Assembly: GCA_019359315.1 (NCBI GenBank) | Contig: JAHHHO010000035.1 | Span: forward strand, 1 to 56,684 | Source of the DNA: Myxacorys californica WJT36-NPBG1 | GTDB taxonomy: Bacteria; Cyanobacteriota; Cyanobacteriia; Leptolyngbyales; Leptolyngbyaceae | Reading direction: 5' to 3' | Length of the DNA stretch: 56,684 bases | Shown: positions 901 to 31,282 of the stretch, one piece after another | Position numbering within the stretch: position 1 is the stretch's first letter | How the letters are laid out: every line of letters starts with the position of its first letter | Program-made: the position numbers and the translations under genes | Notes under the pieces: generated by a model | Told to the model about the DNA's origin: nothing | Databases searched by the model: none | What the model saw: the letters and a program-made list of their open reading frames with translations, nothing else

Positions 901-930
901 TATAATAATTTCAGTTTGTCAAAGTGACAA
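901..930 (+). promoter_or_regulatory. TATAAT box and TTGTCA/TGACAA dyad at the regulator start
   Basis: A TATAAT hexamer lies at 901-906. A perfect inverted repeat TTGTCA-AAG-TGACAA at 916-930 sits just downstream, overlapping a possible GTG start at 924 and lying 11 bases before the ATG at 942. A repressor bound here would block its own transcription, so autoregulation is plausible. A similar sequence (TTGCCAAATGACAA) occurs just after the regulator gene at 1277-1290. The core TGACAA also resembles TnsB boxes of V-K ends, so a transposase-binding role is the alternative. Confidence 0.35.
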
Positions 931-941
931 GCAGATTGACA

Positions 942-2044: not shown

Positions 2045-4051
2045 TCATGTAGTAGCCAGCTGTTGAAGTGCTTGCAAAAACTCTTGCTCTGGCTCAAAGA
2101 TCTGGATGGTGAACCGGTTGTCAAGGTCACACAGGTCTCTCAGAGCTTTTTGGGTATTATCATCAAATTCTGTGGGTTGAACAAAGCGATCACCCAAAAC
2201 TGCTCGTAATCGTTCCGCATCATTGTAGAAGTACTCCTGCAACAGTGGGACAACACGGCGGTACCAGGCAAAATGTAATTCCGTTACATTCTTGACGTTA
2301 ATAAAATAGCTGTGCCCAATCTGATAATCACGCCCTAGAAGGGCAGTAATACATTGGTTAAGACGAGCCAGTAACGCACTCAAACTAATGCCCTCAACTG
2401 TACCTAATAGAGATGGGTCAGGCAGTAATTCAACAAATGTGAAACGTCGTCTTAACGCGATATCTAACAGCGAGATCGAACGATCTGCCGTGTTCATCGT
2501 ACCTAGAATGTACAGATTTTCTGGAACACTGAACTCTTCTTGGGAGTAAGGCAATCGAACTGTAATTTCACTGTCTTCACCCAGTCGTTTGTCGTCTTCG
2601 ATTAAGGTGATCAGTTCCCCAAACACTTTGGCAATATTGGCACGGTTAATTTCGTCAATGATGATCAGATAACGATGTTCCGGGTCATTCTGAGCTTGAC
2701 GGCAAATTCCCTTGAAAACACCATCAACAACCTGGTACTGAATCTGCCCGTCCACGATTACTGGTTTCAATCCTTCCACAAACTCCTCATAAGCGAAAGA
2801 TTGGTGAAACGTGACAAACCTCAAGTAGTCCGAAATGACGCGCTTTCGGGCATCAGGTTGCCGCAAGTCATCCAATTCATCTGCCAGATTGACCTCAATG
2901 TACCCTTCCCCTTCTTCTGTCAGGCACCATTCACCCTGTTGATTCTTCTCAAACAAGTAAGGCGGCTGACGATTTTTATATTTAACTGTTTCCACATTGG
3001 GATGAGTATGAATCTGAAGCATCGCCCAAATCTGGTTATTGAGCTTTTGAGTTTTAGTTAATGTCCAGTACTCTTGAATTAACGAGTTATCAGCCAGTTC
3101 AGGAACTTTGAAATATTTCTGTGGGCGCTTTAGGTACATGGCAAGCGCGATCACATCATGCCATCTGAGAGGTTGCAGAATTTCCCGGCGTTGCTGCTCT
3201 GGTGCTAGGGGAGTGCTCAATTGCTCACCTAAGAAGAAGGAGGCAAATTTATTGACAGCATAGGTCTTGCCTGTACCGGGAGGACCATACAAAATCAAAT
3301 TCCGTGTTTCCTCTGCAAGGGTTGCGAGTTGAACAATTTCCTCAGGCAATTGAACAAGGTCTGAATTTTCGGCTTCAGGCTGCGGTTTGAGCGAGCGATC
3401 TCCTGGGGGAATGGCTGAATAAAGAAAAGCCATCATCTGCAAAGTATCCATCCCCTCAAATTCTGGCTGGTTTTTTAGGAAATCTAGGAGTTGTTGGTTT
3501 TTGGTATGCAAGCCACCTGCTGGCTGCTGTCCAAAAAAATTCAGGAAATGAGCGAGATGATAGGGGTTTGAGATAGGCAAGAATTTGTCGGGGAAGTATA
3601 GATAGAGTGGTTTGGCTCGTAATCCATTCCGGTTAGGTCCAAGTTGGCTACTACCAATTGGCTCCAACTGGTCAAACTGTTCTGAGGCTGCTACCTCAAT
3701 CAGTGACACAAGACCTGCTCTAATGCGGGTGAACGCTTCATTCGGGTCACTGCACTGAAATGCTTTGTTCCATTTCCATTGCTGATCGCCTTTGCTCCAC
3801 CAAATTCCCCACTTGCTTGAACTTCCACCAGCCACGCTACCCAAGCGGTGTGTTTTAAATTCTACCCAATAGCAAAAACTGTCAGGCTTGCCGACCGCGT
3901 ATTCTTCTAGGGTCAGGCTTGGTAGTTGCTCTCTAGGAAATCGCTGCACGAAGGCTTGGCGTAGCTGTTGGAGGTCAGATGATGCCTGTTTGGGATTCCT
4001 GCTTAACCATGAGGTTAGTTCAGCACGCCAATTTTGGGTTGGGCTATTCAT
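2045..4051 (-). CDS. mcrB: McrB-like AAA+ GTPase of a type IV restriction system
   Basis: 668 residues. Residues 1-230 are a variable N-terminal part, expected to recognise DNA. The AAA+ core follows: Walker A GPPGTGKT at 256-263, Walker B and the McrB signature IIIDEINRANIAKVFGEL at about 463-480, MNTADRS at 519-525 and arginine finger LRRRF at 533-537. In McrBC systems this hexameric GTPase translocates DNA and activates the McrC nuclease at modified DNA. The start codon overlaps the end of the upstream mcrC by 8 bases, so the two are translationally coupled. It is the last gene of the 25-kb cargo operon. The N-terminal part shows no obvious known reader fold, so the modification recognised cannot be predicted. 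Confidence 0.9.
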   Translation of the reverse strand: MNSPTQNWRAELTSWLSRNPKQASSDLQQLRQAFVQRFPREQLPSLTLEEYAVGKPDSFCYWVEFKTHRLGSVAGGSSSKWGIWWSKGDQQWKWNKAFQCSDPNEAFTRIRAGLVSLIEVAASEQFDQLEPIGSSQLGPNRNGLRAKPLYLYFPDKFLPISNPYHLAHFLNFFGQQPAGGLHTKNQQLLDFLKNQPEFEGMDTLQMMAFLYSAIPPGDRSLKPQPEAENSDLVQLPEEIVQLATLAEETRNLILYGPPGTGKTYAVNKFASFFLGEQLSTPLAPEQQRREILQPLRWHDVIALAMYLKRPQKYFKVPELADNSLIQEYWTLTKTQKLNNQIWAMLQIHTHPNVETVKYKNRQPPYLFEKNQQGEWCLTEEGEGYIEVNLADELDDLRQPDARKRVISDYLRFVTFHQSFAYEEFVEGLKPVIVDGQIQYQVVDGVFKGICRQAQNDPEHRYLIIIDEINRANIAKVFGELITLIEDDKRLGEDSEITVRLPYSQEEFSVPENLYILGTMNTADRSISLLDIALRRRFTFVELLPDPSLLGTVEGISLSALLARLNQCITALLGRDYQIGHSYFINVKNVTELHFAWYRRVVPLLQEYFYNDAERLRAVLGDRFVQPTEFDDNTQKALRDLCDLDNRFTIQIFEPEQEFLQALQQLATT

Positions 4052-5357
4052 ACGCTCCTTCCAGTATTTCTCGTAACTCCGCCTGCAAGGCTCCTCTAGT
4101 CTCAGATTTTGATAGATCCTGTAACAGGTTTACTGTCACGGCCCAAATCTCCTGGTTACTTCCCTCCAGCTTAAAGTGTGCCCTCTGAGGTGCTGATAAC
4201 TCCATGGTTTGGGGATAAAGTAGAATGACTCGTGGACAAGTGTACTGATGAGCATAGGCATACATCTGGTAGAAATCAGATTCAGCAACACCCAACTTGC
4301 GGTCTCCCTCGTTGAGGTGCTTGTATTTAATATCCATTACTATCGGGAACTGGTCGTTGACTTGAAAAACCAGGTCAGGCTTTAATCGGAACACTCGCTG
4401 TCCTTCACGGTTTGCCAGGTACTGTACTGCCCTCTGACCTTGTGGGAGCAATTCACAATGGTTGAGCAATGGCGGCAGAACCTCATGGCGATGACGTTGA
4501 ATAAAACTAACAATAAATCGCTCAAATAGTTGGTTCATATCGAATACGAACGAAAATGTTGTAATGTCGCTAGCAGACAGTTGCAATCCAAGACGCTCCA
4601 AAAACAACTGGGCTAAATTGAGCAATGGTTCATATTGTTTGTTCAGACGCGATAGCTGAACCTGTTTTGCCATATCAGCTGTAACGACGGGTAGAAGCGT
4701 TACCTCATCCATCCAATATCTCAATTCCGTCAAGTTTTGACGATTACTGCTGTCACGGGTCAGTTGCCACAATCTTTCAACGACATACCGGAAAATGCGA
4801 TTAAGCGGATTGTCTATCGTAAATTCGTCATAGGTGACCGTAAATAAGTGCTTTTGCTCAGGTCGCCTTAACTGTGTCGCAATCTGCCATTTGCCTTTCA
4901 GTACTGGAAGTACCGCATCAATGGGCTGATAACTACGATGGGTAGCTTTCTGCCACTCATGTTTTAGATGAGAAGCAAATAGGTAGATAAGTACTTCAAA
5001 CCAGTTCTGCGAGCGCTGAAGTGCAGCGAGGTTAGCTTCTCGAATTCCTAAGTATCTTGCATAATCCAGCATCAATAGCAGGTTGCGCGCTGCTTCCTGC
5101 TGGCTCTGCTCACGGTTTTGAGATCGATAAACTTTGGGAAGAATTTGAATCGTCCGTCGTCCCAAGCGCACTACTCCGACATATTGTCTTGCCTGAAATT
5201 GAAGTTGCCCCTTCCTAACGACTGGTTTGAGAATTTCAATTCCAGTCACCCTAGACAGTTGCTCAAGGCATTTCAGCTCGTATCCATCTGAAATTTCTGT
5301 TGATTCGTGCTCAAAAAGAGTGACGAGTTCAGTTTGGGGCGTTCCTTGCCAAAGCAT
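4044..5357 (-). CDS. mcrC: McrC-like nuclease subunit
   Basis: 437 residues, usual McrC length. The N-terminal part carries the family pattern RLGRRTIQILPKVYR (about 64-78). The C-terminal PD-(D/E)xK nuclease is readable as LKPDLVF (Asp 328) followed by MDIKYKHL (Asp 342, Lys 344). Known role: endonuclease subunit that stimulates McrB GTPase and cuts between modified sites. It starts 8 bases after the stop of the ParE-UvrD gene and overlaps mcrB by 8 bases. All catalytic residues I can check are present, so the pair looks functional. Confidence 0.9.
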   Translation of the reverse strand: MLWQGTPQTELVTLFEHESTEISDGYELKCLEQLSRVTGIEILKPVVRKGQLQFQARQYVGVVRLGRRTIQILPKVYRSQNREQSQQEAARNLLLMLDYARYLGIREANLAALQRSQNWFEVLIYLFASHLKHEWQKATHRSYQPIDAVLPVLKGKWQIATQLRRPEQKHLFTVTYDEFTIDNPLNRIFRYVVERLWQLTRDSSNRQNLTELRYWMDEVTLLPVVTADMAKQVQLSRLNKQYEPLLNLAQLFLERLGLQLSASDITTFSFVFDMNQLFERFIVSFIQRHRHEVLPPLLNHCELLPQGQRAVQYLANREGQRVFRLKPDLVFQVNDQFPIVMDIKYKHLNEGDRKLGVAESDFYQMYAYAHQYTCPRVILLYPQTMELSAPQRAHFKLEGSNQEIWAVTVNLLQDLSKSETRGALQAELREILEGAYE

Positions 5358-5365
5358 ATAGAACC

Positions 5366-7432
5366 TCAGGAGACTACTGCGTTGGGGGATTCACCACCTT
5401 TGATGCCTTTCAGAAAGCGGCTAGGTTGTCCATTCCAGCATAGGTACACAACATCTCGTGCACGAGTGATACTGACATAGAGTAAATGCTGTTCTTGCTC
5501 TAGCGCCTCTTTACGAGCCTGAAGGTCATTTTCCTCCGCAATATGAGGAGAGGGAATTACATCATCAGAGAGGTGAACGACGAAAATGATCTTGAATTCA
5601 AGCCCTTTTGCTCGATGCATACTTCCGGTATTCACTGCATCAGCTACTGCATCAGGTTCTTGATCATCAAGCCGGATGCAGGCAATCTTCTGTTTTTTCA
5701 AAGATTTCTCAATTGATTTGAGGAGATTTTTAGTCCGGCTAAAAACTCCAATTTCATTTGGCAGTATTCCTTGTTGAATTAACCGAAAAATCTCTTCAGC
5801 CACAAATTCTGCCTGCTGATTTGCATTGGCAAAAGGTTTCAAAACTGGTTCCGGACCGTTCAGTAAACTGATTGTATCTGAACGCTGCTCAGTGCCACCG
5901 TCAAGATCATCTTGCTCCCCGTCCAGTAGTTGGTCAGCAAACTGGCGAATCTGTTCAGTAGTCCGATAATTGATTTTCAAGACATGAGAGCGTCCTTGAA
6001 CATTGATCCCTAATGATTTGAGGCTGAGCCGCCCTTGATAGATGCGCTGTCCACCGTCCCCAACTAACATTAAACTGCCAAGGCGCTTGCCTGCTAAGGC
6101 AGCCAAAAACTTGAGCTCTTGTGGTTTGAGATCCTGAGTCTCGTCCACAATTACCGTGTCAAAGGGACTTCTGACTTGTCCAGATGTTATCAAGTCACCA
6201 GCATGTCGGTACAGCCCAGACCAATCTGTTTTGTTCTGAGATTGTAATTGGAAGAGAACCGATTCAAAAATTTGCCAAACTTGCTTGCGCCCTTTAGCAC
6301 TTAGGGGTTGTCCACGCCCTACACGATTAGCCGATCGGTATGCTTCCCAAGTTGCGATTCCCTGAGTTTGGATTACAAACTTCCATTCCAGCCAAACAGC
6401 AGAGACATTAAGAGGACAAGCAGGAGAAAAGTTTTGTGCGATTAGCAATTGAATCTCTTCATCACTAGTGATGGAGAGGGACTTGTTTCCTTCTTTCAGG
6501 ATACGTCCTGCTTGGCTGGCAACGGTGCCAACTGTGATGTTTGTCAACTCGTCAGAACTACACAGCAACTTCAGGTTACGGTTGATATTGTCGCAAAGGG
6601 TTTTGACGAAGCTCGTCACAAGTACTTTTTTGCCCTGCTGCGCCAGATGTTTGGCTCGATGCATCGCAACTACGGTTTTCCCTGTACCTGCGGAACCTGT
6701 CACCTTAACGGGACCCTTGTAGGAACTGGTAACCAATTTGCGTTGTGACGGATGTAGAAAGCCAATCCAGGTTGCCAGGGGAGCTGCCAAAATTTTGGCA
6801 ATATCATCACTGCTCTTGACGACAATAAAACGCCGTTGAGTGTCTTCATTTTCAAAGATTGGTTTCTCAGGAGATGGTGGCAGTGGAGGAGTGACAAGTT
6901 CACCACCTGCTAATCGTAAGAACCGTTCTGCGACCTCTTCTGGTAGTTTTTCGAGGATACTCAATAAGTCATCCTCAGTGACCAGCTTACGAATAACTGC
7001 TACCCAGGTTGGGGGTAAGCCTAAGCTCAAAAGGTAGTCGTCATTATGGGTATCAAACAGACCGAATTGGTTTTGAGGTTTCTCAGCAAATTGCTGCTCG
7101 ATCGTTTCCGTAAACTCAATAATTTGGAGGGCACCTGTTTTAGCATTTTGCTCAACTCGGCGCACTTGTGCCCAAGCATAGGCATTGTCATGCTGCCCGG
7201 CATAGAGCAGCGCCCAAGTATCACTTTCTTTGTAGATGATAGCGCGTAGGCCTTGAGTAATACGGGCAGACCAGAGGTTGTCATCCTTTACTTTCGTGAC
7301 CCTTTCCAGGCTAATGCTGGGGTGAGCCGGATTGCTATAGAACTTGTCGATAAAATCGGTTACTCGCTTGGTGTCATTTGCATTTAGCTTTGACAGGGAA
7401 CTCATCAAGGATTTTCCGAGTAAAACGATCAT
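5366..7432 (-). CDS. ParE/RelE-like domain fused to UvrD/Rep-type SF1 helicase
   Basis: 688 residues. Residues about 10-97 look like a ParE/RelE-fold toxin or mRNA-interferase-like module (pattern LWSARITQGLRAIIYK then LLYAGQHDNAYAWA). This is followed by a UvrD-family helicase: Walker A SAGTGKT at 246-252, motif II VDETQDL near 435, MHRAKGLEF near 612 and a C-terminal YVSITRAR motif. UvrD proteins with this N-terminal domain are widespread but their role is not well defined; translation arrest or DNA binding by the ParE part are both possible. The ATG overlaps the stop of the upstream helicase gene by one base (TGATG), so expression is coupled. Within this operon a defence role is inferred. 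Confidence 0.8.
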   Translation of the reverse strand: MIVLLGKSLMSSLSKLNANDTKRVTDFIDKFYSNPAHPSISLERVTKVKDDNLWSARITQGLRAIIYKESDTWALLYAGQHDNAYAWAQVRRVEQNAKTGALQIIEFTETIEQQFAEKPQNQFGLFDTHNDDYLLSLGLPPTWVAVIRKLVTEDDLLSILEKLPEEVAERFLRLAGGELVTPPLPPSPEKPIFENEDTQRRFIVVKSSDDIAKILAAPLATWIGFLHPSQRKLVTSSYKGPVKVTGSAGTGKTVVAMHRAKHLAQQGKKVLVTSFVKTLCDNINRNLKLLCSSDELTNITVGTVASQAGRILKEGNKSLSITSDEEIQLLIAQNFSPACPLNVSAVWLEWKFVIQTQGIATWEAYRSANRVGRGQPLSAKGRKQVWQIFESVLFQLQSQNKTDWSGLYRHAGDLITSGQVRSPFDTVIVDETQDLKPQELKFLAALAGKRLGSLMLVGDGGQRIYQGRLSLKSLGINVQGRSHVLKINYRTTEQIRQFADQLLDGEQDDLDGGTEQRSDTISLLNGPEPVLKPFANANQQAEFVAEEIFRLIQQGILPNEIGVFSRTKNLLKSIEKSLKKQKIACIRLDDQEPDAVADAVNTGSMHRAKGLEFKIIFVVHLSDDVIPSPHIAEENDLQARKEALEQEQHLLYVSITRARDVVYLCWNGQPSRFLKGIKGGESPNAVVS

Positions 7433-10400
7433 CAGATTCCCTCCTGTAATGCGCTTAGAATCTGATCGACAACATCTGGATGATTCGGATCTACAGCAAT
7501 CGAAGAACGGTTTTGCTTTTGCAGCGCTTGCTGGAGTTGGAAAGCATCACTTCGGGTTTGATCAATAATCAAGAGAATACGATTCTCTTGCGGAGACGCT
7601 TCGCGATCGCCTCGGAACACTTGAGCAATACAGGTTCCTATCACCTGCCCCTCGTCGTCAATATCAAGACCTTCATCAATCTCAATCCCTTCTGCAGCAG
7701 CCAGTGTTTTTAGAATCGATAACCAGATTGGTTCAAACAAACTCCAGTCGACTTCAACAGGTGATTCATCAAACTTGTTAGTTTGAGCAAGGGTAGTTGG
7801 TGTTTCAAGCCAGGTTGGGTTGTCTCGAATATCTTTCGCTTTCGCTTTACCGACCAGTATCTTGCCAATACGGTAGAAGTACTTTGCCATCGCCTGAGGA
7901 TCATCCAGATTCCCAACTGGAATCTCAATCACCTCGTAATCAGAATTACGCAGTTCTTCCCGAATCGCGCGATCGCGCTGCGCTGTGTCTGGGTTGCCGT
8001 GTAAGTGCTTGCTCATCCCGTCCAAATAAACGCAAATACCTTCCAGATCTTCATTTGGATCTTCAAAGAAGAAATCAGGTTTAGTCGTGCCTAATGGCTT
8101 ACCCAAATCAATCGGTTTTTGGGGTGTTGGTTCTGAAAACCCAGCTCGTTTGAGCATTTCATAGAGCCGAGATTCAGCCTGATTAACGGGCTGTGCTCCT
8201 GCCTTGGACCCTGCTTTCGGGAGTTTGGCAGGAACCGCATGACTTTGGGACAGAATGTCGCCCCAATTCTGCAACTTCTCCAACGCTGTATGGCGATTGA
8301 GATAGCGGTGATAGTAGGCATTGCGGAAGGTGAATAAGCAGTCGATACACGCGGTATTGCACTGTGAAGGACAATGCCAAACGACTTCTAGAGCGGCTGA
8401 GATCACCGTTGTCCAACGGACTAATAACTGTTCCAGTAAGCCAGAACCACCTGGCATAGGATCGTAGAGCAGAACATCTGCTCTCTCGGTGCCAGGCTGG
8501 GCGATCGTCAGAATCTGGAGGTCTTCTAACTCCATATCCAACACATTGGCGGCACCGTGCCGAATAGCTTCCATGGCGCTGTAAGCAACTTGGCGATTCT
8601 CGCAATCCTGAATCGACAGGGCATCGGCAACAATATTGGCGTAGAAGCCCACAGGTTCGACGGGTTTACCGCAGCGCTGAATATGGTCTGTCACAAATAG
8701 GTCTCGATCGCGTTGGGAGGTGAAAGGCGATCGGCTTTGCCCACAGACCGAGCAAACGGTGTAGCCAAGGATACCGCCTCGAACGAGACTGGTAGTCCCA
8801 ATATTGACCATTCTTAGATGGACGTTACGGCGCAGTGCAACAGTGTGACTGCCCCAGGTGTATGCCAGTCCTCCATCGTGACGGTCTTGTTCGTAGCCTA
8901 ACAACGTCACGGGCATCTGAAAACGGTTGTCTTCCTCATCAGAAATGTTGGATTGGTGGGGTAAGTCTACATCACAAATTGCTAAGGCTTTCAGGCTTGA
9001 AGCCAATAGCCCCGTACTGGTGCCCGCAGTTCCCATTTCTCGAATGGCTTCATTAGCAATATCCACCTGAAAGCGGAGGGGTTCTTCCGGTTCTAGATGG
9101 AAGAATCGAGGGACAAAGCGGTGCCCGTTGGCGTAGATCAGGTTACCGGGAACGTACTCGCGTAGTGCCATGCCAGCTGGACGTGGTAAGTCAAAATCGG
9201 GCAACCAACCTGCACTTCGAGGGGTTTGAGCTGTGCCTTTGATCGAGCCAACGTCTAATCCGTAACCTGGAAGAAAACCCTCAGCCGCTAAGGCACTGTA
9301 GGTATTTGTGTCATCAAACCCTTCTGTATCCTGCCTTCTCTTGTGCTGAATCCCTTTGAGTCGCTTGATCAGGCGATCGCACCGTTGAAAGAGGGCATCT
9401 TCATCCGGGTCAAGTGTTCCTTTCTGAACCCGCAACTCATTCAGCCGACGCATTTGGTCTAGTGCCCATTGCAGTCTGCGCCAGAGCCGCTGGATCACCA
9501 TAGCCAGTTGGTCGCCCATTTGTTCGATATGAGAGCGCAATTCCTTCTCACTCACAGCAATTCGGTCTTCTTTGGGCCAGCTTTCTGCAAATGTGGTTTT
9601 TACATGACCTAGAATTATGGCTTCATGCTTCTGAATTAAGTTGGTTAGGCTACTGACATCCAACGGGGCAGTTCGTAGAACGCCTGAGTCGCTGAACAGA
9701 TAGTGTTTGACTTGGCTGGAGAAGCAGCTTTCCAGAACTTTGGAAATTTCCTGCTGTTCGCCAAGGGTTAAAGAACTGGTAGGACGAGCAAGCTGATAGA
9801 GAACTGTAAGAATGGCTGCATGGACGTGCTTACCAACCATTAAGGTGTTGCGCAGATTTAATCGAGGAGGGGAGATCTGCCCCTGTAAAAGCCGCATGGG
9901 GTCATTGAAGTAGGCGCGATCGTGGCTGGCGGGTCGGGCGTAGGCAAAGTTGACAGCCATGCGATGTCGCCGCCCAGCACGTCCTGCCCGTTGCCAGTAG
10001 TTAGCAGGAAGGGGTGGAATGTTCCGCATCAGCACAGCATCGAGAGAGCCAATGTCAACGCCCATCTCTAAAGTCGGAGTACAGACGAGGGTATTGAGCA
10101 GTTTGCTGTTGCCTTTGAAGAGCCGTTCAATCACTTCGCGATCATTCGTCGGCACCTGAGCCGAATGTTCTCTAGGACGCAACATCTCGAATTGCTCATC
10201 CAGCACCCGCAGGTCGTAATCATCGGCACTCTCCGGTTCATATTGAATAGTGCCTTGGCACCGCCAGGTCATACAGGCGGCGTGAGGTGTGAGGCGAGGA
10301 TGGGGACGACGACAAATAGTGCAGCGGTGCACGCCTTGATGGGGAGCAATCTTCAGCTTGTCAGAGTCAATTTGATAAGCTCCATCACAGCCTGTAAGCG

Positions 10401-13230: not shown

Positions 13231-13341
13231 GAGCAGGGGAAAGTTTAGGGCAAGATATACCTGTTACAGTTTTAACCGACAAATTTTTCATCTGTTTTGT
13301 CTAGCTAGGTTGGGGAACTTGTCAACCAAGCGAAAAACTAA

Positions 13342-17800: not shown

Positions 17801-18314
17801 TAATGCTGGGCTGAAAGTAACTTTTAATTTTTGAGATACCGAAGTCAGCGAGTTTAATTTGATTGTTGCTGTCTACCAGGATGTTGCTGGGTTTAAGGTC
17901 TCGATGTATGTATCCTCGCTCGTGGGAAAATTCGAGGGCTTCTAGAATGGGTTTGCCAATGATTTCCCAAAAGTCGTCCCAGCCTTGAGGTGGGGATTCC
18001 TGAAGTAGCGCGGTCAGATTGCGCTCTACCCAGGGCATAACAAGGAAATAGTGCCCTATCCCTGGATCAATTCCTGAATCTAAAAGCTCCACAATTTTGG
18101 GATGAGTCAGTTCTTTCAATGCTTGCGTCTCGCGCTTGAATGACTCAGCTAAAATTTCTTCCTCAATGCAGCCGTGACGAAAGACCTTTACAGCAACCTT
18201 GCTACCGCCAGCTTGTAGGTCTACAGCCTGATACACATCAGCCATGCCACCGGAGTAGGGCGAACCCAATAAGGCATAGCGACTATTGATTATCAGAACG
18301 GATTGACCATTCAT
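14862..18314 (-). CDS. Ser/Thr protein kinase fused to a Upf1-like SF1 helicase
   Basis: 1150 residues. An N-terminal Hanks-type kinase covers about 7-265: Gly-rich loop YSGGMADVY, catalytic Lys 43 in VAVKVF, HRDLKPSN from 137 and DFG at 157-159, so all core residues are present. A linker region (270-560) includes coiled-coil segments. A DNA2/Upf1-type helicase follows: Walker A GPPGTGKT at 589-596, motif II VDEAS near 870, GDSNQLPP, and C-terminal DAFQGREAD and NVALSRGK motifs. A kinase and helicase in one chain suggests that phosphorylation is coupled to nucleic-acid sensing; BREX type 2 also uses a kinase (PglW), but I know no standard DISARM member of this type. It starts 145 bases after the methylase stop and overlaps the PLD gene by four bases. 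Confidence 0.85.
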   Translation of the reverse strand: MNGQSVLIINSRYALLGSPYSGGMADVYQAVDLQAGGSKVAVKVFRHGCIEEEILAESFKRETQALKELTHPKIVELLDSGIDPGIGHYFLVMPWVERNLTALLQESPPQGWDDFWEIIGKPILEALEFSHERGYIHRDLKPSNILVDSNNQIKLADFGISKIKSYFQPSITLAEFTSRPYTPPEYDDGSYTYTRDVFGFGVIVLRCLTNVDLADYSSIPKALDQLDIPPKISEIIEAAVATDPAERPRNAEVLLAQLQAVQDQRQQAYSSKKRVCYLKLSQRAITNFQNELNLSQAEIEKILQEDLNTICGITPFQNRKATNPEEEFSEGHYSIFGAAYSYHAATDQSHLLIINAKSLPNSALEGKRESSWNPDYQFEFSKPLNLPDAIEVIQDLKFAVADYEATQKQVKAEAAKQRLFRVWSDILRAKADWEKERETPLRYTSVEYDGSRAYFRLASLPDEDITGQPRHITRENGSSILRGDVEEVTDEQLVLYIQYGNPEQIPDEGELRFDTRAAEIALYRQKSALDAIRFDRAVRTNLRSLLINPSETQPPKSKEITHFFQKLNPSQAEAVQAALGTEDFLIVEGPPGTGKTRFITEVILQTLEENPHARILLSSQTHVALDNALERIRSQNPHLKLVRIGSHEKVADVVKPLLVEEQMHQWRQEAISNSQTFLEAWAAQHSISAEDVQLATQLQELKSITLKLDLLREELNHRQQERDNLFPFSSEHPQKRAKYELPEELEEQIRQLDEEIADFKRKLKQVRDEKELVAERLQNLSGKNIKKFLKLTVKELDTRLEQLIDLRNPEAKKLQQLLELQAEWFDQFGRSSEFNASLLKRVQVVAGTCIGMPKDVQDIEFDLCIVDEASKATATEVLVPISRSRRWILVGDSNQLPPFQDEASSSAQFLSKYDLKPDDVQETLFDLLLRTLPETSRKSLAIQHRMVEPIGNLISQCFYDGRLQSSGPAISQNLSRILPKSVTWLTTASLPNRTEQNTRPSYNNACEVSIILQFLKKLNQIAIEVSDNVEKCKVAILTGYTAQRKLLNRRLDSELENLQSLDIECNTVDAFQGREADIAIYSITRSNPKGELGFLNKKERLNVALSRGKIGLVIVGDHHFCLTAPSNPLARVLDHIEHHSNGCCLKETEV

Positions 18315-18459
18315 TCTTGTCTCTCTGGTTTACGAGGTTTAGGCTGATCGGCTTGCCGAGGGAGCAGGTAGCAATCGGATTATGGACCAACAGCGAGTCG
18401 GGGAATCATCAAGGTTATTATTCCCACAAGTTTTGGTAGATATACCTAAGAGGTTCTGG

Positions 18460-21400
18460 TTAGCTTCGACGTCTTCTTTTTGGCGTGTCTACGACATTTC
18501 CAAATAAATCGACTTGTAAGGGGTTCCCAAACAAATCAGTGGGCTGCTGAAAGTTTGGATCAGCAGGGGGTACAGGCTCTATAGCGGTTTCAATAGATTC
18601 TGTAGAGTGCGAGACGGAAGGTGCTGTCTGTTGGGGATATTTCAATAACTGCCGCAAATTTTCGGCGTGTCGTTCGCACTCTGCCCAGGATTCTTCTGGA
18701 GTGCCGTCCAGTTGCCAAGGGAGGAACCTGTCCCCCAATCTTGCAGCTACAGGTTGATGTTCTTTTGCTCTGTCGTCGTGTCCTAACTCGTAGTCTGCTA
18801 ACCGCAAGGTTTCGGGAAGCATCCAACCTTCACCGTCATTGAGGTTGAGGAAGGCTTCGAGTCCGATTTTTTTGAGTTCGTGAAAAGCGATGAGGGAGAG
18901 AATAGTATGACGTAGTTCGGGATCTTTCTCTTTATCTACACGCCAGAAACCTTTAGGATCAAGGTTTTCATTAGAATCAACTTTACCTGCTGGATAATCA
19001 CAATTAGCAAGAATACATTCCATATGCTCTATTTCTAATCCATACATATAAGCAACTACTGCATCAACATTACATTTCAAACGAAGACGCTCGTGATATG
19101 TAAAGGCTGTGGATGAAGAGTATGGAATTACTGAAACTTCAGAATCTAACTCCTCTCTAAGCTGAAGAGCATACGATGAAAAAATAGGTGAGAGAAAAGA
19201 TAGACGGGCAGCGGAACGAATTAAAAACCTGATATTTGGAAGGGATAGGTTAGGTAGTTGTAGAATGGGACATTCGCTTAACAAATAAGCACTAATATTA
19301 ACGCCACCAAATCTGCTACGTAGGAGGAAATCGAAGGACAAGGTACTAAAAACTGATTGTAGTAATAGTAAACGGCTGATTGTGTTAGGACTAGTTTGAA
19401 GTGTATACACAGATTCTCCACAAGGAAATCCAGGTATTAGAGCACACTTCATCGAACGTGCATTAGTCGCGGAACTAACTTTCACGATTCCTAGTTTTGG
19501 TCCTAGTTTTGCTTTTCCGGAGTTATAGAAAGTTTCTCTGCTCATCAGATATTGAGGTTTAAATCTTTTCTGAGCCATTTCAATCTCTTGCCATACAGCT
19601 CTTCTTCCTCTTCCTGAGATCCACCCTTGATTACAATAGTCAAAGTTCTGAATCATACGTCCCTCGTATAAGGGAAAAGCTATTTCACCGTCAGCACTTT
19701 CCCAATAAAAGCCTTCATTGTTGGGACTAAACTGCTTTGCCTCCCATTTCTCCAATAATGGGAATAACTTAGCATCATCTGTCATATGGAACTCACGTCC
19801 ATATTCAATTGACCAACCTTTGTTCCTGGACTCATAGAACGTTGGATTACGGCTATGCGCAGTCTTGATAACTTCCAACTGATTGATAGAAGTTACTTCA
19901 AGTATAGATAGGCTCTGTGGACTAAACTGCTTAACCCACTTCACAGGATAAGGAAGAATGAATTGTTCTGCATTTTCCCAATCTTCTATTGCGTATCTTG
20001 AAAATGCCGTTTTGATTTCTGAAGTTTTTCCACTCTTCTGAATAATCAGAATACAGAATTTAAATCGATAGTAGATTGACGTGAATATCTTGTTCCAATT
20101 AATGATGCCAAACAGCCACTCCCACTTACATTTCGAGATAAACTGGTTGCGCAAGTCAAGAGTTCCTTTATCTGTGTAAACTCCTGACGGCATAATCATA
20201 CCTAGATAACCTTTAGGCTGAAGAATTGCAAGAGATAATTCAAGAAACATCTTGTAAGTATTGATGTCAGCAGACCCTTGATAACGGAATGGATGATCTG
20301 GATCGGCATAACCCGATCGCTTTTGCTGTTGAGCCAGCCAGTCCTGATGAAGAATGGCATTTTCCTTACCGCGAGACAAGCTGAAATGAAACTCGCCTGC
20401 TTCTTTGACACCAAAGGGATACCCTGCATACTTTGTCCAGTTTGAAAGAGCTTTGAGTTTGGCGCAATAGGCTAACCACTCCTGCTCAACCTGGGGAGAC
20501 TTCTTAAAATACTCCAACTGTTTCTCTAACGCCTCCTGCTTTCCATAGGTGCGATAGAGCGGATCAATATTCGAGAAAAATTCTTTTGAATTGGGCTTCT
20601 GAATTTCCCACGGTGGATTTCCGACAATGCCGCTAAATCCAGCATTTTCGCCCACAAATACATCAGGAAATTCTAACTCCCAATGAAAGAAGCGATATTC
20701 TTGCGCCAGTTGATTCACGATCGCAGCGGTTTCTGGCGGTTGGTTAAAAAATTTCCCAGGCGTTGGGGCGTGTTCGGTCGCATCGCCTGACCAAAACCAG
20801 ATCGCACACCAGCTATCAAATGCCTGTCGCAACTGGCGCAGTTCTTGACTCTGTTCAATCTTTTCTCGATAGCGACGCTCTTGCTCTTGGGTATCGGCAA
20901 TGGCTAGTTGATGTAACTCCTCAAAGATATTGACCGCATCTTGGTGAATTTCTTCTGGGGGTTTAGGCAGATCAAAGTCAGGAGCAGATAACTGCTGTTG
21001 CTGTCTCCACTCTGGATCAAATGCCTTAATTAAATTAACTAACTCTGCTTTGACAGTTTCTTTCGTATCTTTAATTGCTTGTGTCCAGCTATCTCCCGAT
21101 TGAAGACGTTGCCCTTTGCTTTTGCCTCGTGTTGCCACATGCTCCCGAAAATGATGCACAAAGTGATCGTGGTTCGCATCACCCCCTTCCCGTTCCCATG
21201 CCATCGCTGGATAGTCTTGAAAGCGATCGAACCAGCACCCAACCAGGGCATTCCCACACTTGATCTTGTGATCCAAAAAACCGAAGGGTAGATACTTATC
21301 CATCGTCTCCACCCACAGCGCCAACCGCGCCAACTCCACCGCCAGTGGATTAATATCCACTCCATAAAGACAGCGTTCAACAATAAAACGCTTAAGCCGA

Positions 21401-23589
21401 GGTTTCGATCGCTCCTCTGCCTTCTCCACCGTAACAGGCAGTTCCTTTACACATTCTGCAAACCATTCAGGCTGAGCATCCAGCGGAATCGACACCACAA
21501 TTTCCTCACCCCGCTCCACCAACCATCCGTGATAGAACAAGCTCCGCCACAACGCCTCCAGCAAAAACCGCAGCGCAGCTAATAAGAACGAAGCCGAACC
21601 ACAAGCCGGATCACAAATTTTCAGATTGAGGATTTCGATCGGAGTCTTGGGTGTCCAGGCAGAAGCAGGTGCTTTCTCATCCGGTTGCCCCGCCTCATCT
21701 AATGGTGGATTGTACGCCAGCGGTAACAACGTCCGCTGCACCGTTGGAATAGCTAACTGTGGGCGCGTATAAAACGTCCCCGATCCTTTGCGGGTGCCAC
21801 CCCAGCGCACCAAAAACCATTCCCCTGGTAACACCACACGGGCAATTAATGCACCGGCAGCTTTCCCAACTGCCCGTTCGTAAGCCACCTGGGCATCTGC
21901 TTTCTTGCTGCGAGGCTTAGGCACTAAATTCCCTGCCTTGACTGCCCGGACTGCCCACTGTTGAGCGCGATCGCGTAGTTGTTGCAGTTGATCGACATCC
22001 TCTGCGATCGCAACATCCAGTTCTGCCTCTGGCTCAGTATCCGCTTCAGCGTCTAGCTCCTCACTTTCTTCTGGCTCCGCTTCGTCACCCTCAGCATCCT
22101 CGCCTTCCTCGCCTTCACCCTCCACCTCTGCTTTTGCTTTTTGCTTCAGCTTCTCGACCAGTGCCGACAGAGTTTTATCATCCATCCCCTCCAAACGAGC
22201 CAGAGGTAGAACTGGCTGATCACCAAGATTGAGAAAAACCATCGGTTCATCGGCTGTCGCCTGTCGCAGCTCAAAATCCAGCAAGCCTTCATACAAGATG
22301 CCGATATACTCTGATGACAAATCCGAAAAATCGACGGGAGCCTCCACCCAGGTACTCCGCCGCCCCTGTCGTACCTTGACCTTACTGCGACACAGCAACT
22401 CTAGAATGCGATAGACTACCGCATCTGACGGGGTATGACTCGGATTTTCAAACGCCGAGAGTGCCCGCAAAATTGGATCATTGGCAGCAGAATTACCTGG
22501 TTCAAACAACCCACCGCCATACTGGGGCACAGGCAGAGCTTCGTGAGCGCATCCCTCATATACCAACTTAAACAGTGCCAGCAACCGTGACCAGGAACTT
22601 ACACCCTGCCGTAACCGCTCTGCTGCCCGTCCTCCAGCACGGCGATCGAGCTGTTCTCGTAAACCCTGTAATCCGTAAGCACTGTGATAAATCGGGTTGT
22701 CGCGCGGCAGCAGATCTCGCGCCTCTGCAAACAAAATCACCACACAGCGCATCACAATTCGAGTTGCTGCAATATAAACGTGGCGAGGCTCAATCCCATC
22801 CGACTTTGCCATCAGGGGGGCTAACGCCTCCGCCGATTCTCGAATCAGCAACTCAACCGCCTGCCGAACTCGCTCCCCCAAAACCTCCGACAGTTCTGCC
22901 TGTCCCTGCCGGGAAGCGGCGATCGCTACCAGTAACGGACTGGGTACATCGGTGCGATCGGTCTGAAGGGCTTGCTGCCCTAGCAACAACCGTAGTGCCG
23001 TTACCTGTGAACCGGGTTGTCCTTCCTCAAACCAGAAAGTAACATCCCACTCACACCAGGCATCGTAGTCTGCCCCCGCATGAATCAACCGCCACTGATA
23101 GCCATTGGTCAGCAGCGCAATTTTCTGATTGGCTTTTCGTAGCCATTCCACCACGCGAGAGACAGACCGCTTGCCGCGCCCAATCCCCAGCCGTGTCACC
23201 TTGCCCCCCGATTCCTGCCCATCGGCAACAAAGACGGGCAGCACCTCCCCATGTACCCCCTGCCACACCCGCCGAGGACGAATCATCTCACGGGTAATCG
23301 CTGGATATGACCAGGTGCGATCGACCTGACTTCCCTTCTGCCAATCGCCTGCCAGCCCCAGCACCTCTTCCAGCACTGTATCTAGAAAGGTACTCAGATG
23401 ATCGTCTTCCCCATTCTGGAGGCGGGTCACATCTCGACGCAGCCGATCCTCAATAAATCGAGGCAACGGCGACAAAGACTCTGCAACAAAGAACTCGCTG
23501 AGCTTGGAAGATGCAATGAGTAAGCCACCATGCTTCAGCGATGCCCACCAATCTTGCAAAGAGACGTTTGACTGAAGTGCGATCGTCAT
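18460..23589 (-). CDS. Giant N6-adenine DNA methyltransferase (DrmMI-like, Eco57I family)
   Basis: 1709 residues. SAM-binding motif I is ICDPACGSASF near 655-665, VDINPLAVELARLALW follows near 745, and the N6-adenine motif IV NPPW is near 990. A long acidic linker (Glu/Asp rich, about 480-530) separates the N-terminal 480 residues from the methylase core. The C-terminal part resembles the target-recognition half of type IIG/BREX-type enzymes. I cannot find a convincing PD-(D/E)xK nuclease, so it probably only methylates. In class 1 DISARM, DrmMI marks host DNA and follows drmD, as here: the ATG overlaps the helicase stop by four bases. It is longer than the DrmMI proteins I know of. PglX of BREX is a related alternative, but no BREX partners are present. 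Confidence 0.85.
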   Translation of the reverse strand: MTIALQSNVSLQDWWASLKHGGLLIASSKLSEFFVAESLSPLPRFIEDRLRRDVTRLQNGEDDHLSTFLDTVLEEVLGLAGDWQKGSQVDRTWSYPAITREMIRPRRVWQGVHGEVLPVFVADGQESGGKVTRLGIGRGKRSVSRVVEWLRKANQKIALLTNGYQWRLIHAGADYDAWCEWDVTFWFEEGQPGSQVTALRLLLGQQALQTDRTDVPSPLLVAIAASRQGQAELSEVLGERVRQAVELLIRESAEALAPLMAKSDGIEPRHVYIAATRIVMRCVVILFAEARDLLPRDNPIYHSAYGLQGLREQLDRRAGGRAAERLRQGVSSWSRLLALFKLVYEGCAHEALPVPQYGGGLFEPGNSAANDPILRALSAFENPSHTPSDAVVYRILELLCRSKVKVRQGRRSTWVEAPVDFSDLSSEYIGILYEGLLDFELRQATADEPMVFLNLGDQPVLPLARLEGMDDKTLSALVEKLKQKAKAEVEGEGEEGEDAEGDEAEPEESEELDAEADTEPEAELDVAIAEDVDQLQQLRDRAQQWAVRAVKAGNLVPKPRSKKADAQVAYERAVGKAAGALIARVVLPGEWFLVRWGGTRKGSGTFYTRPQLAIPTVQRTLLPLAYNPPLDEAGQPDEKAPASAWTPKTPIEILNLKICDPACGSASFLLAALRFLLEALWRSLFYHGWLVERGEEIVVSIPLDAQPEWFAECVKELPVTVEKAEERSKPRLKRFIVERCLYGVDINPLAVELARLALWVETMDKYLPFGFLDHKIKCGNALVGCWFDRFQDYPAMAWEREGGDANHDHFVHHFREHVATRGKSKGQRLQSGDSWTQAIKDTKETVKAELVNLIKAFDPEWRQQQQLSAPDFDLPKPPEEIHQDAVNIFEELHQLAIADTQEQERRYREKIEQSQELRQLRQAFDSWCAIWFWSGDATEHAPTPGKFFNQPPETAAIVNQLAQEYRFFHWELEFPDVFVGENAGFSGIVGNPPWEIQKPNSKEFFSNIDPLYRTYGKQEALEKQLEYFKKSPQVEQEWLAYCAKLKALSNWTKYAGYPFGVKEAGEFHFSLSRGKENAILHQDWLAQQQKRSGYADPDHPFRYQGSADINTYKMFLELSLAILQPKGYLGMIMPSGVYTDKGTLDLRNQFISKCKWEWLFGIINWNKIFTSIYYRFKFCILIIQKSGKTSEIKTAFSRYAIEDWENAEQFILPYPVKWVKQFSPQSLSILEVTSINQLEVIKTAHSRNPTFYESRNKGWSIEYGREFHMTDDAKLFPLLEKWEAKQFSPNNEGFYWESADGEIAFPLYEGRMIQNFDYCNQGWISGRGRRAVWQEIEMAQKRFKPQYLMSRETFYNSGKAKLGPKLGIVKVSSATNARSMKCALIPGFPCGESVYTLQTSPNTISRLLLLQSVFSTLSFDFLLRSRFGGVNISAYLLSECPILQLPNLSLPNIRFLIRSAARLSFLSPIFSSYALQLREELDSEVSVIPYSSSTAFTYHERLRLKCNVDAVVAYMYGLEIEHMECILANCDYPAGKVDSNENLDPKGFWRVDKEKDPELRHTILSLIAFHELKKIGLEAFLNLNDGEGWMLPETLRLADYELGHDDRAKEHQPVAARLGDRFLPWQLDGTPEESWAECERHAENLRQLLKYPQQTAPSVSHSTESIETAIEPVPPADPNFQQPTDLFGNPLQVDLFGNVVDTPKRRRRS

Positions 23590-26500
23590 GGCTTCACCTC
23601 CGGCAAGCGAATCTCAACGGTAACTGGGAAGACCTGAGCCTTTCCCCGGAGGCTATACCGTTTCGGTAAAGTGCCCTCCAGCACCCGCGCCTGTTCCCGT
23701 TTAAGCTGATCGAGCAAGTCTTGATAATGGCTCTTACGGCGACGCAGTTCATCGTCTAGATCCCGCAATCGCTCTTCCTGCGCTCTCCGCTCATCTGGAA
23801 TCAGGGAAAGCTGCTGCATATCCCCCACTAACGCATCCCGCTCCTTCTCAATCTTCTGGATGGTGGTCTCCCGCATCGCTCGTTCCACCTCTTGAAGCCG
23901 ATGACGGAAGCGTTCCTTCTCTTCCTTTTGTGCCTCCTCACCGATCGCTTTCAGTCGTGCCGTCAACTGGGCAGTCAAATCATCCGCCATTTTGGACAAA
24001 ACCGCGCGTACCTCTTGCGAAACCTCATCCCACAAATCTTGAGCCTGAGCGATCGCCGCTTCACTCACCATTTGGACAGTCGGTCGATCTTCCGCTACCG
24101 GAACATGGGGTAAGCGATCACCCAACTCTTCATTCTTAATGGGAAAGCGAATTGTCTGCACCCAATGATGAAAGGGTTCTCGCAATTCGTTAACGCCCAA
24201 TTCTTCCACCGTCAGTAGCAGCAACGCATCGGCACCAGCGGGTACAGTTCCATATCGCACCGTCCAACGGCTACAAGGGTAGTCATCCAATCCACCTCCC
24301 GGAAACCGAGCACGGGCAAACAGATTTAACGCCTGATGGAAGAGGGGATGCCCCAGGTGCAGCAAGGTCGTATCCTTAGCAGGGCGGTACACCGGGCGAC
24401 CGTTGCGGGTTTGAATAAAGTGTTGTGGGTCAAATACGATCGCGGGCAAAGCTCCCCGCTGTCCAGAATCCGTTTCTAGCCGGAGATAGTCATCAATCAC
24501 AGGCTCCCAGCGTTGAGGCACTGGCATTCGTAGTCGCAGTCGTCCTTCTGAGTCAGGCACTTCAAACCGGGGTAGTCCAATCCCTGCTCCCAAAGCAATT
24601 TCTAACGTACTTTTGAGCGTTTTAGGCGTCAGGTCTAGCTCCTGTTCTAACTGTCGTAAGGTTTCTGCGGCTTCACTGCCTGCTTCCAAGTCAGGCGATC
24701 GCGGAATCTGGCTGCGACCTCGACGGTAATTCACCGCAGCATCTAGACCTTTGACAACGCTACTCGTGTCTTCCAAATCAATAAAACGCCGCTGAAATGC
24801 CGCATCAAATACTTCACCCATCGACCCCAGTTCTTCTCGAATCGTATTCACTTTGTCCACGACATGACCAAGAAACTGAAGATCCGCATCATCTTCGCTG
24901 GTGAAGTGCAGCACAATCACATCCTGCGCCTGTCCGTGGCGATCGAGCCGCCCATTCCGCTGATCCAATCTCGACGGATTCCAGGGGATGTCGTAATGAA
25001 GGACGATGTAAGCTGTTTCTTGCAGGTTCAACCCCTCAGAAGCCGCATCCGTTGCAATCATCACTCGGACTGGATCGGTTGGGTCGTTAAACGCCTGCTT
25101 GATCTCATCGCGCTGTCGGTCGTCCATCCCCCCGTACAGCACCCGCACAATTTCCGGCTCTTTTTTGAAATGGATCTTGAGTCGTTGTTCCAGGTAATCC
25201 AGCGTCGTTTTGTATTCAGTAAAGACGACGATGCGATCGCTGCCTCGCCACTGATTCCCCAACCGTAAATATTGCTCGATCGTATCGATTAATCGCTCCC
25301 ATCGCTCATCCTCCGCTGGTTGAGGCAATTCCCCATTCGCACTCGGAACCAACCCCAACTGTTGCAGAGCGGCATCGACCGCCCCAATCTCGTCTTGTAA
25401 GTGTGGAATCAAGGGCTTGAACCAAGCACCCGTTGTTTTAGACGCATACTGGAGCCGACCTTCGGTTTCCTGGTCATCGTCGAGGTCTTCAGAAAGCGAT
25501 CGCCGCGCCGCCTGAACGGCTGCTAATTCCGCTGATTCATCCTGAGTTGTCCCTTCCCGAAAGCGATACCAGGAACTCGCAAACGCATACGGGCAAGACA
25601 GCAACCGCTTGTTCAATACCTCCACTGCGAATGCTCCAGCAAGCTGTTCAGTCCGGCTAGCATGGGCAATCAACTGCTTGACCCCACTCCGAAACTCACC
25701 GAAGGCAATCGAGAGCTTACGTTCAGTCGAGCTAAAGTACAAAGGCACCGGACGGGGACGACGCTCACAGAATCGGGGGATTTGCCCTGCCTGCTCATCT
25801 ACAGCATTAATCTCTCGCTTCAATCGGCGCACTACAACCTGCTCAATCCGCTGCTTCATCACATCAGTGAACTCGCTAGATTGTGTAAAGCGAACGGGGT
25901 CAAGCTGCTCCAACAACCCAGAAAAACAGCGAGTATGACCGTTGTGTGGAGTAGCCGTGAGAAATAGCTTGTGTTCAAACCAGGGAGCGATCGCCCGCAA
26001 CATCTTGGAAAGGTCACTATCCTCCCCGAAATTGGACGGCATTAGATTATGCGCCTCATCCACAATCAGCAGATCCCATGGCAACTGTGCTGATCCATCT
26101 GGCTGAGCACAGGCAGCCCGAAACTGCTCTAGCACATCTGGTTGCCGCAGGTAATGGTAAGAGGTGATGATCCGAGGGTAAGTCCGCCACGGATTGGCAT
26201 CAAGTCCTAACCGCTTTTGCAGAGCATGGGTCTCTGCCCGATCTACCACATCAAAGCCCAATGAGAACTTGACCTTCATCTCCTGCTGCCACTGCTTCCG
26301 TAAAGCCGCAGGACAAAGGATTAATACCCGCCGAATTCGCCGCCGTAAGAGCAATTCAGTTAGGATTAGCCCTGCCTCGACCGTCTTACCCAACCCTACA
26401 TCATCCGCCAAGAGCAGGGAGATTCGAGGCATCCGTAACGCTTTCAGCAAGGGAACCAACTGAAAATCTTCGACCTGAACTGCCCCGAAGAAAGGAGAAG

Positions 26501-26861
26501 CGACTGGGGGAGTCCAATCGGTAACTGAGCGATCGGGTGGCAAAAATGGAGACAGTGCTGTCCATCGGGTCGATCGCTGCATGGCATCAAAATCAGCCGC
26601 AAGCATGGGTGGCTCAGTCGCAACCTGAGGCAGTGCAGTTGGCTCCAGCACTGAGGGACTGATCTCACGTTCCCAAATGATCATCTCCTCTGGAATACCA
26701 TCAGGATCGGTATACTCCAGCGTCACCAAATGCAACCGCCCTGCCAAACTGCCATCAAATGGCTCAACCGAAGAAATTAATGCCCGACGGTTCCGAACCG
26801 TGGCAAGCATCCCGACTCTTGGATTAGCAGTAGCAGAACTGGTAGTTGGGCGGTCGGACAT
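23586..26861 (-). CDS. SNF2-family helicase (DrmD-like), first cargo gene
   Basis: 1091 residues from ATG 26861 (an in-frame TTG at 26873 would add four). The SNF2/RapA-like core shows DDVGLGKTVEAG from 157 (numbered from the TTG), DEAH at 272-275, FLTATPHNG near 310 and, in the C-terminal lobe, VVFTEYKTTLDYLEQRL and ASEGLNLQ ... RLDQRNGRLDRHGQ. A coiled-coil, charged region occupies about 970-1070. This is the usual make-up of DrmD, the SNF2 helicase heading class 1 DISARM, and its coupling to the adenine methylase downstream fits. It is separated from tniQ by about 190 bases containing a strong hairpin, so the cargo operon probably has its own promoter there; no confident -35/-10 pair is visible. 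Confidence 0.85.
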   Translation of the reverse strand: MSDRPTTSSATANPRVGMLATVRNRRALISSVEPFDGSLAGRLHLVTLEYTDPDGIPEEMIIWEREISPSVLEPTALPQVATEPPMLAADFDAMQRSTRWTALSPFLPPDRSVTDWTPPVASPFFGAVQVEDFQLVPLLKALRMPRISLLLADDVGLGKTVEAGLILTELLLRRRIRRVLILCPAALRKQWQQEMKVKFSLGFDVVDRAETHALQKRLGLDANPWRTYPRIITSYHYLRQPDVLEQFRAACAQPDGSAQLPWDLLIVDEAHNLMPSNFGEDSDLSKMLRAIAPWFEHKLFLTATPHNGHTRCFSGLLEQLDPVRFTQSSEFTDVMKQRIEQVVVRRLKREINAVDEQAGQIPRFCERRPRPVPLYFSSTERKLSIAFGEFRSGVKQLIAHASRTEQLAGAFAVEVLNKRLLSCPYAFASSWYRFREGTTQDESAELAAVQAARRSLSEDLDDDQETEGRLQYASKTTGAWFKPLIPHLQDEIGAVDAALQQLGLVPSANGELPQPAEDERWERLIDTIEQYLRLGNQWRGSDRIVVFTEYKTTLDYLEQRLKIHFKKEPEIVRVLYGGMDDRQRDEIKQAFNDPTDPVRVMIATDAASEGLNLQETAYIVLHYDIPWNPSRLDQRNGRLDRHGQAQDVIVLHFTSEDDADLQFLGHVVDKVNTIREELGSMGEVFDAAFQRRFIDLEDTSSVVKGLDAAVNYRRGRSQIPRSPDLEAGSEAAETLRQLEQELDLTPKTLKSTLEIALGAGIGLPRFEVPDSEGRLRLRMPVPQRWEPVIDDYLRLETDSGQRGALPAIVFDPQHFIQTRNGRPVYRPAKDTTLLHLGHPLFHQALNLFARARFPGGGLDDYPCSRWTVRYGTVPAGADALLLLTVEELGVNELREPFHHWVQTIRFPIKNEELGDRLPHVPVAEDRPTVQMVSEAAIAQAQDLWDEVSQEVRAVLSKMADDLTAQLTARLKAIGEEAQKEEKERFRHRLQEVERAMRETTIQKIEKERDALVGDMQQLSLIPDERRAQEERLRDLDDELRRRKSHYQDLLDQLKREQARVLEGTLPKRYSLRGKAQVFPVTVEIRLPEVKP

Positions 26862-26967
26862 AAATAAAACCAAGCCATGAACTCAACAGCTTTCCTTTTC
26901 AAGGTTGCCTTATCCTACTCCGAACTGCCAAAAGACAAACAGGATTCCTGCTCCTAGAGCCTTGAAG

Positions 26968-27009: not shown

Positions 27010-27047
27010 TTTTCTGTCAAAAACTGCCCCGACATTGATGTAAGTTA

Positions 27048-31191: not shown

Positions 31192-31282
31192 GACTCCTTC
31201 CGTCCTCAATTAGCTAGTAAGTTTGTATTAATCATAATAGAGCTTGAAAAAATCTGAGTAAATTTTTTGGGAACAATTTTAT

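Follow-up and report, generated by a model that had tools for sequence, protein, structure and literature searches.

A stretch of DNA of 56,684 nucleotides (nt) from the cyanobacterium Myxacorys californica WJT36-NPBG1 (contig JAHHHO010000035.1, analysed over its whole length and hereafter called the window) carries an eight-gene anti-phage operon, which is read here with fair confidence as three stacked defence modules carried by a type V-K CRISPR-associated transposon (CAST): an ARMADA-type core, a Mokosh type I pair and a McrBC tail. This reading is built on the anatomy of the locus and its internal borders, on the family relations of the encoded proteins, on the separate occurrence of the modules in relatives and on the transposon genes at the flanks. 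An earlier note on this DNA had described a single composite unit of DISARM-like, Druantia-like and McrBC parts; much of its anatomy was confirmed, and its claim of unity was not.

The operon occupies the minus strand from 26873 down to 2045 as eight successive open reading frames (ORFs) over 24.8 kb, all uninterrupted and all retaining the catalytic motifs that were sought. In order of transcription the predicted products are an ArmA/DrmD-like SNF2 helicase (23586..26873; 1095 amino acids (aa) from a TTG start at 26873, with an internal ATG at 26861 that the earlier note had taken as its coordinate; DEAH at aa 272), an ArmB/DrmMI-like N6-adenine methyltransferase (18460..23589; 1709 aa; NPPW at aa 991), the Ser/Thr kinase and superfamily 1 helicase MkoA (14862..18314; 1150 aa), the PLD-family nuclease MkoB (13342..14865; 507 aa), ArmC, a fused DEAD helicase and DUF1998 protein (7432..13230; 1932 aa), an ArmD-like RelE/ParE-UvrD helicase (5366..7432; 688 aa), the nuclease subunit McrC (4044..5357; 437 aa) and the GTPase subunit McrB (2045..4051; 668 aa). 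The junctions along transcription measure -4, 145, -4, 111, -1, 8 and -8 nt, and the two loose ones among the seven (145 and 111 nt) coincide exactly with the borders of the Mokosh pair. Frames and gap measurements thus bore out the eight-gene order and five tight junctions of the earlier note, Pfam recovered all of its domain calls (SNF2, N6 methyltransferase, kinase-helicase, PLD, DUF1998 helicase, UvrD, McrC and McrB), and its description of a co-directional composite with type IV restriction built in holds. The eight genes could be read as one transcript and are presumably co-transcribed; a scan for sigma-70-like promoters and terminators, which is weak evidence, gave no matches inside the two loose gaps. 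The interval from tniQ to the first operon gene holds an inverted repeat (26965-27012; 17-nt arms, 94% complementary, 14-nt loop), a possible operator or attenuator. Neither Rfam nor tRNA scanning gave a match in the window or in the contig stretches.

The central pair of genes is a Mokosh type I system. MkoA matches its PADLOC model with 864 bits over aa 9-1144, contains HRDLKPSN, DFG and Walker A motifs and is covered by Pfam Pkinase and AAA_11/AAA_12, while MkoB, which overlaps it by 4 nt, has a PLDc_2 domain with HxK at aa 450 followed by D and GSxN; the two are adjacent, near full length and placed between the ArmB methylase and the ArmC DUF1998 helicase. The PLD protein had previously been proposed as DrmC, an assignment that is ruled out by PADLOC scores of 265 bits for MkoB against 27 bits for DrmC; the DrmD-like and DrmMI-like equivalents proposed alongside it stood. 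Elsewhere the pair occurs independently of the other modules. Among 61 plasmid records matching MkoA, the alignment spans 80% or more of the query in 18, and in all eight of these neighbourhoods that were opened an MkoB match follows MkoA (4-nt overlap in seven, 21-nt gap in one) with no core gene beside the pair, although some have helicase genes of another sort close by, such as directly upstream in L022 and downstream in L018. Mokosh without the core was also seen in the available stretches of L012, L013, G251 and G189, and when ARMADA I, ARMADA II and DISARM queries were run against 13 Mokosh stretches, all helicase matches were partial and the sole other match was a TniQ fragment; the highest-scoring match (L015, 126 bits) is to a cluster more than 9 kb away, which we take to be DISARM-class-2-like. 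MkoA was found in 0/41 other genomes of the family sample, and a single phage record matched it, over half its length and at 27%. One further stretch (L038, contig C9 of G189; 767-6382) has MkoA and a partial MkoB match with a TniQ gene, itself fragmentary, some 0.8 kb away; Mokosh may therefore also travel on Tn7-like elements elsewhere.

The two genes on either side of this pair form the ARMADA-type core. ArmA carries Pfam SNF2/Helicase_C domains and scores 252 bits to PADLOC BrxHII; ArmB carries Eco57I/N6 methyltransferase domains (Eco57I, 6.7e-22) and scores 1535 bits to PADLOC type IIG and 437 bits to DrmMI; ArmC carries DEAD, Helicase_C and MZB domains and scores 399 bits to DruE against 50 bits to DrmA. 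Druantia membership, which was judged by partners such as DruH, was rejected, a DruE score being expected from an ARMADA ArmC as well and no Druantia partner being present among the matches listed. The equivalents of DrmA and DrmB were correctly placed in one chain by the earlier note and correspond to the fused ArmC; its Druantia-like and ParE-UvrD parts are not distinct, both belonging to the published ARMADA layout. The ArmC C-terminus is putatively Vsr-like: a PDF...DG motif lines up in 4/4 sequences and three of the four match REase_MTES_1575 at E<=1, with the window copy matching none and no Vsr entry among ten solved-structure matches at E<=10. At the N-terminus of the ArmD-like protein H81, D82, Y85 and W87 are invariant in an alignment with 14 homologues, the family-alignment profile matches YoeB (E 0.0046), and 7/15 aligned members match Pfam ParE_like at E<=1. 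The ParE domain previously proposed at the UvrD N-terminus is therefore upheld by the family alignment and not by the window copy alone, which matches no Pfam model at E<=1.

That the UvrD gene is part of ARMADA follows from its neighbours: an ArmC-type gene adjoins it in all 10 loci opened from the 12 other UvrD-matching genomes. In the RelE-UvrD tree the window protein groups with a homologue from genome G210 at 53% identity (support 100/99), outside the type II ArmD clade (100/100). The gain of this gene from outside any ARMADA was considered and dropped, as that homologue lies within a type I-like ARMADA, in the order ArmC, GmrSD, RelE-UvrD, ArmA, ArmB and a second methylase; the two ArmB-like methylases stand in tandem in the same ARMADA locus (L085/L086, joined stretch 19921-27996). 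The core in genome G320 (L032) has SNF2, methylase and DUF1998 genes 64, 50 and 61% identical to those of the window; on a Synechocystis B12 plasmid (L031) the core genes are fragmentary, with an insertion sequence in the methylase. Both stretches are without Mokosh, McrBC and the UvrD gene. Near the G320 operon lies a Piwi-domain, prokaryotic Argonaute-like protein (L032, 18444-19997). No viral contig matched ArmC. In 17 E. coli/Klebsiella plasmid records (L053 and 16 others) the identity of ArmC to the L053 query is 98% or more, and both of the plasmids opened are typed IncY.

The tail of the operon is a McrBC pair, with McrC matching Pfam McrBC (5e-72) and McrB matching AAA_5 (3e-16) and containing Walker A and NTADRS motifs; its NCBIfam match is below cut-off. 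The McrB N-terminus (aa 6-224) matches PADLOC PD-T4-1 (2.7e-30), which is a defence protein of another kind, and this region possibly serves in recognition. This pair likewise occurs apart from the core, being 61 and 65% identical to an Acaryochloris plasmid pair that follows a type I restriction system, and 52 and 54% identical to a pair in genome G231 with no ARMADA gene in 20 kb. Genes of the GmrSD_N type, another type IV family, lie inside two other ARMADA loci (G210 and G341).

Samples of the phylum, 386 genomes searched with strict thresholds and few candidates scored per genome, such that rare cases may escape, were in keeping with this separation. Matches were found, the window's own genome included, in 9 genomes for MkoA, 2 for ArmC, 3 for ArmB, 13 for UvrD and 8 for McrB; outside the source genome, MkoA was present in 8/385 (six near full length, two with the kinase part only) and McrB in 7 (one near full length). 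Within these samples no other genome was common to the MkoA list and any other list, and the eight-gene order was seen in no other opened locus. The junction at which Mokosh lies was compared across 18 opened loci in which the helicase gene(s) come straight after a methylase, a non-random set that leaves out G082, G210, L063 and L088-L092, in which the methylase is elsewhere or outside the stretch. Extra genes were found there in eight: Mokosh in the window, DUF2281-PemK in L032, pairs with a PIN gene in L031 and L098, a MoxR-like gene in L057, GmrSD and others in L094, two reverse genes in L096 and XisI-XisH in L099. Six of the remaining junctions are within 8 nt, and four have gaps of 86-729 nt with no annotated or listed gene. 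By comparison, the ArmA-ArmB junction exceeds 9 nt in 3/14 loci. These counts provide a lead that the methylase-helicase junction is an insertion slot.

A type V-K CAST most likely carries these eight genes as its cargo. The operon is situated between an upstream tniQ-tnsC-tnsB set and a cas12k gene at the contig start, all on the minus strand: TniQ (27048..27572; PADLOC TniQ V-K, 189.5 bits), the TnsC ATPase (27734..28915; TnsC V-K, 96.8 bits), the TnsB transposase (28975..31209; TnsB V-K, 499 bits) and the N-terminal part of cas12k (1..664), an open frame that runs off the contig and matches NF038191 V_Cas12k at 163 bits against a cut-off of 150 (model positions 10-217). The gene set is that of a type V-K CAST, with a partial cas12k. 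A second contig, C85, begins with a cas12k C-terminal part (model 458-629), followed by an array of seven repeats, the last degenerate. As the source genome holds only these two partial pieces (C11, the window contig, and C85) and one near-full copy on contig C19, we infer that an assembly gap divides a single gene, and that C11 and C85 would be joined through it. Divergent from cas12k, on the plus strand, a small ORF (924..1265; helix-turn-helix-like by eye, without a Pfam match) shares 77% nt identity over 241 nt with an ORF likewise placed by the second cas12k, and is a possible regulator. A 33-nt tandem duplication lies at 1588-1653, near the cas12k end. Two candidate end features were set aside: the V-K end motif TGTACAGTG has a single occurrence (1323-1331), inside the putative element, and at least one in 15/100 shuffles, and the 23-nt direct repeats at 32979 and 33054 (75 nt apart; 32974-33071), on the tnsB side, are beyond a chromosomal-looking frame.

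The second cas12k belongs to what is probably another type V-K transposon of the same genome, in which a related tnsB, a 288-aa frame, tniQ, a restriction system, the small ORF and cas12k succeed one another (C19 4808-22000; L050, L051). Its cargo is a fragmented type I restriction system (HsdM-like 10178-13114, HsdR-like 15620-17440), and its cas12k has one in-frame TAG. Defence genes are already known as cargo of Tn7-like elements (available text of PMC8649781).

Several observations weigh against the proposed arrangement of three modules on one transposon. The cas12k gene is split over two contigs with approximately 240 residues missing, which leaves the transposon a reconstruction and incomplete; C85 opens with 48 bases that show no alignment to Cas12k and contain a stop in its frame, which could mean a broken gene or a faulty contig end; and neither transposon end was identified, the window contig and C85 having only three chance-like 11-mers in common. 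The GC content at third codon positions (ArmA, ArmB and ArmC 0.54, 0.45 and 0.52; MkoA and MkoB 0.39 and 0.36; ArmD-like, McrC and McrB 0.43-0.45), although it also counts in favour of the modules, gives no clean split of ArmB from the ArmD-like and McrBC genes. Finally, because foreign genes occupy the same junction in other ARMADA/DISARM loci, Mokosh might be tolerated there as one passenger among several, instead of being a functional partner.

Among the alternatives, a class 1 DISARM in which drmA and drmB have fused is improbable, even with ArmA exceeding the NCBIfam DISARM_DrmD equivalog cut-off (666.5 bits against 610). That cut-off is passed by 3/9 ARMADA-type ArmA proteins, from the window, L032 (641.1) and G082 (631.1), the other six scoring 280-470 (Haloquadratum 470.3; five type II rows 280-360), and in unrooted trees the DrmD and DrmMI proteins of these three loci fall on the DISARM side (98/98 and 96/97). 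Forcing the window clade together with the two ARMADA I rows gave p-AU (approximately unbiased test) values of 0.044 for DrmD and 0.019 for DrmMI, so the trees do not place it in ARMADA type I, albeit with groups named post hoc, 12 rows, few type I rows and long branches. The DUF1998 helicase, however, groups in a tree of 10 rows with L032, Haloquadratum and G210 (97/97; the latter two taken as ARMADA type I from gene order and tree), with type II and DISARM DrmAB outside (100/100), and forcing it with DISARM gave a p-AU of 0.036 under the same post hoc naming; there is no drmC, and a RelE-UvrD gene follows. Moreover, the four DISARM rows form one side of a branch (76/77 for DrmD, 100/100 for DrmMI), and rooting on them as an outgroup places the window's DrmD/DrmMI clade at the base of ARMADA. 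Neither ArmC nor the ArmD-like protein falls in the type II clade. On these sequence comparisons the core is read as an unusual deep ARMADA lineage, perhaps chimeric; a simple DISARM/ARMADA recombinant was held as a possibility only, given the p-AU values of 0.019-0.044 from few, post hoc rows and the basal placement. The bolder proposal that this locus, G320, Synechocystis B12 and perhaps G082 constitute a third ARMADA lineage combining DISARM-type DrmD-DrmMI with an ARMADA-type ArmC, with Mokosh as its functional partner and the set spread by RNA-guided transposition, is unlikely as it stands.

Quite improbable is the view of the earlier note, that the eight genes are one integrated machine inherited together. 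Strict co-direction, five tight junctions and eight open frames with their catalytic motifs speak for it, as does the requirement of ARMADA for all four of its own genes in E. coli (main text of PMC12458937), but the only loose junctions are the Mokosh borders, and no other genome joins the MkoA list to another. The modules lie apart in the opened relatives, which is largely the pattern that was to count against a single unit. That the genes are passengers on a decayed transposon, non-functional as a set, is very improbable: the unaligned, stop-containing start of C85 is what such decay might leave, whereas the eight cargo frames remain open over 24.8 kb with their motifs kept, and the window part of cas12k is an open frame too. 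On the preferred reading of three modules on a type V-K transposon, ArmB would methylate an adenine motif on host DNA and so protect it, while the ArmA, ArmC and ArmD-like motors, with the putative Vsr-like and RelE-like nuclease domains, would attack unmarked DNA. MkoA and MkoB, inserted between ArmB and ArmC, would act through kinase, helicase and PLD nuclease, and McrC-McrB would cut modified-cytosine DNA, the class of phage DNA able to escape the ARMADA-type module.

The arrangement suggests that an ARMADA-type operon can serve as a frame into which whole defence systems are spliced (Mokosh here; GmrSD and toxin-antitoxin pairs in relatives), and such a set, 25 kb of immune genes, would here ride on a Cas12k transposon. 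Two questions can thereby be put to the test: does the junction of methylase and helicase truly act as a slot for acquiring genes, and do RNA-guided transposons move immunity of several layers among cyanobacteria? The mismatch between DrmD/DrmMI and ArmC also bears on the relationship of DISARM to ARMADA.

The named systems closest to the window are ARMADA types II and I, DISARM class 1, Mokosh type I, BREX with BrxU and the type V-K CASTs. According to the main text of a bioRxiv preprint of September 2025 (PMC12458937), ARMADA has the four-gene order ArmA-ArmB-ArmC-ArmD with RelE-UvrD last and helicases closest to those of Druantia, and protects E. coli against 13/80 phages; type I has a reversed order in many archaea and cyanobacteria, and ArmD is named for type II. 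That main text contains no 'Mokosh', 'transposon', 'GmrSD' or 'CAST'. The type II system of E. coli NCTC 12900 has the window's gene order, fused DEAD-DUF1998 ArmC and terminal RelE-UvrD, and the E. coli IncY plasmid copy has the same order with similarly tight junctions; the window differs in an ArmC that is 24-35% identical in pieces, an ArmD-like protein outside the type II clade, Mokosh inside and McrBC behind. Type I shares the grouping of ArmC and differs in that the window's DrmD and DrmMI fall outside its rows. DISARM class 1 (plasmids L098-L101) shares the DrmD and DrmMI relations and, in 2/4, small genes at the methylase-helicase junction, but has separate drmA and drmB and, in one of four stretches (one of which ended too early to show it), drmC, whereas the window has a fused ArmC and no drmC. 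One of these DISARM sets, drmD-methylase-drmA-DUF1998 in Sphingomonas (L100, 10293-28547), has cas3 on one side and casA on the other, both from a type I-E CRISPR system.

Like other Mokosh type I systems, for which PLD and NERD domains are listed (available text of PMC10952713), the window pair has near-full MkoA and MkoB overlapping by 4 nt; it differs by lying inside an ARMADA operon. Across the openly licensed literature, supplementary tables aside, no paper named both Mokosh and ARMADA, and none among the matches listed joined Cas12k with either; the titles and abstracts of further listed papers likewise contained no such combination. Known type V-K CASTs have the same tnsB-tnsC-tniQ, cargo and cas12k (PMC8649781, the main text of which, as available, has no 'DISARM' or 'McrB'). 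One branch of McrBC has been described as prevalently linked to a DISARM-like system (Bell et al. 2024, PMC11090510, in its available part), and the accessible text of PMC8565348 reports complementary protection by BREX and the GmrSD enzyme BrxU inserted in it (pEFER island), a type IV enzyme inside a methylation-based operon as in the window, with GmrSD and BREX there and McrBC and ARMADA here. The logic of protection against both plain and modified DNA put forward in the earlier note therefore has a tested precedent, and by this analogy such protection is plausible for the window operon. Each module is already known, and a DISARM-like cassette with McrBC has been reported; whereas related defence systems are usually found apart, here three appear to stand end to end in one cluster.

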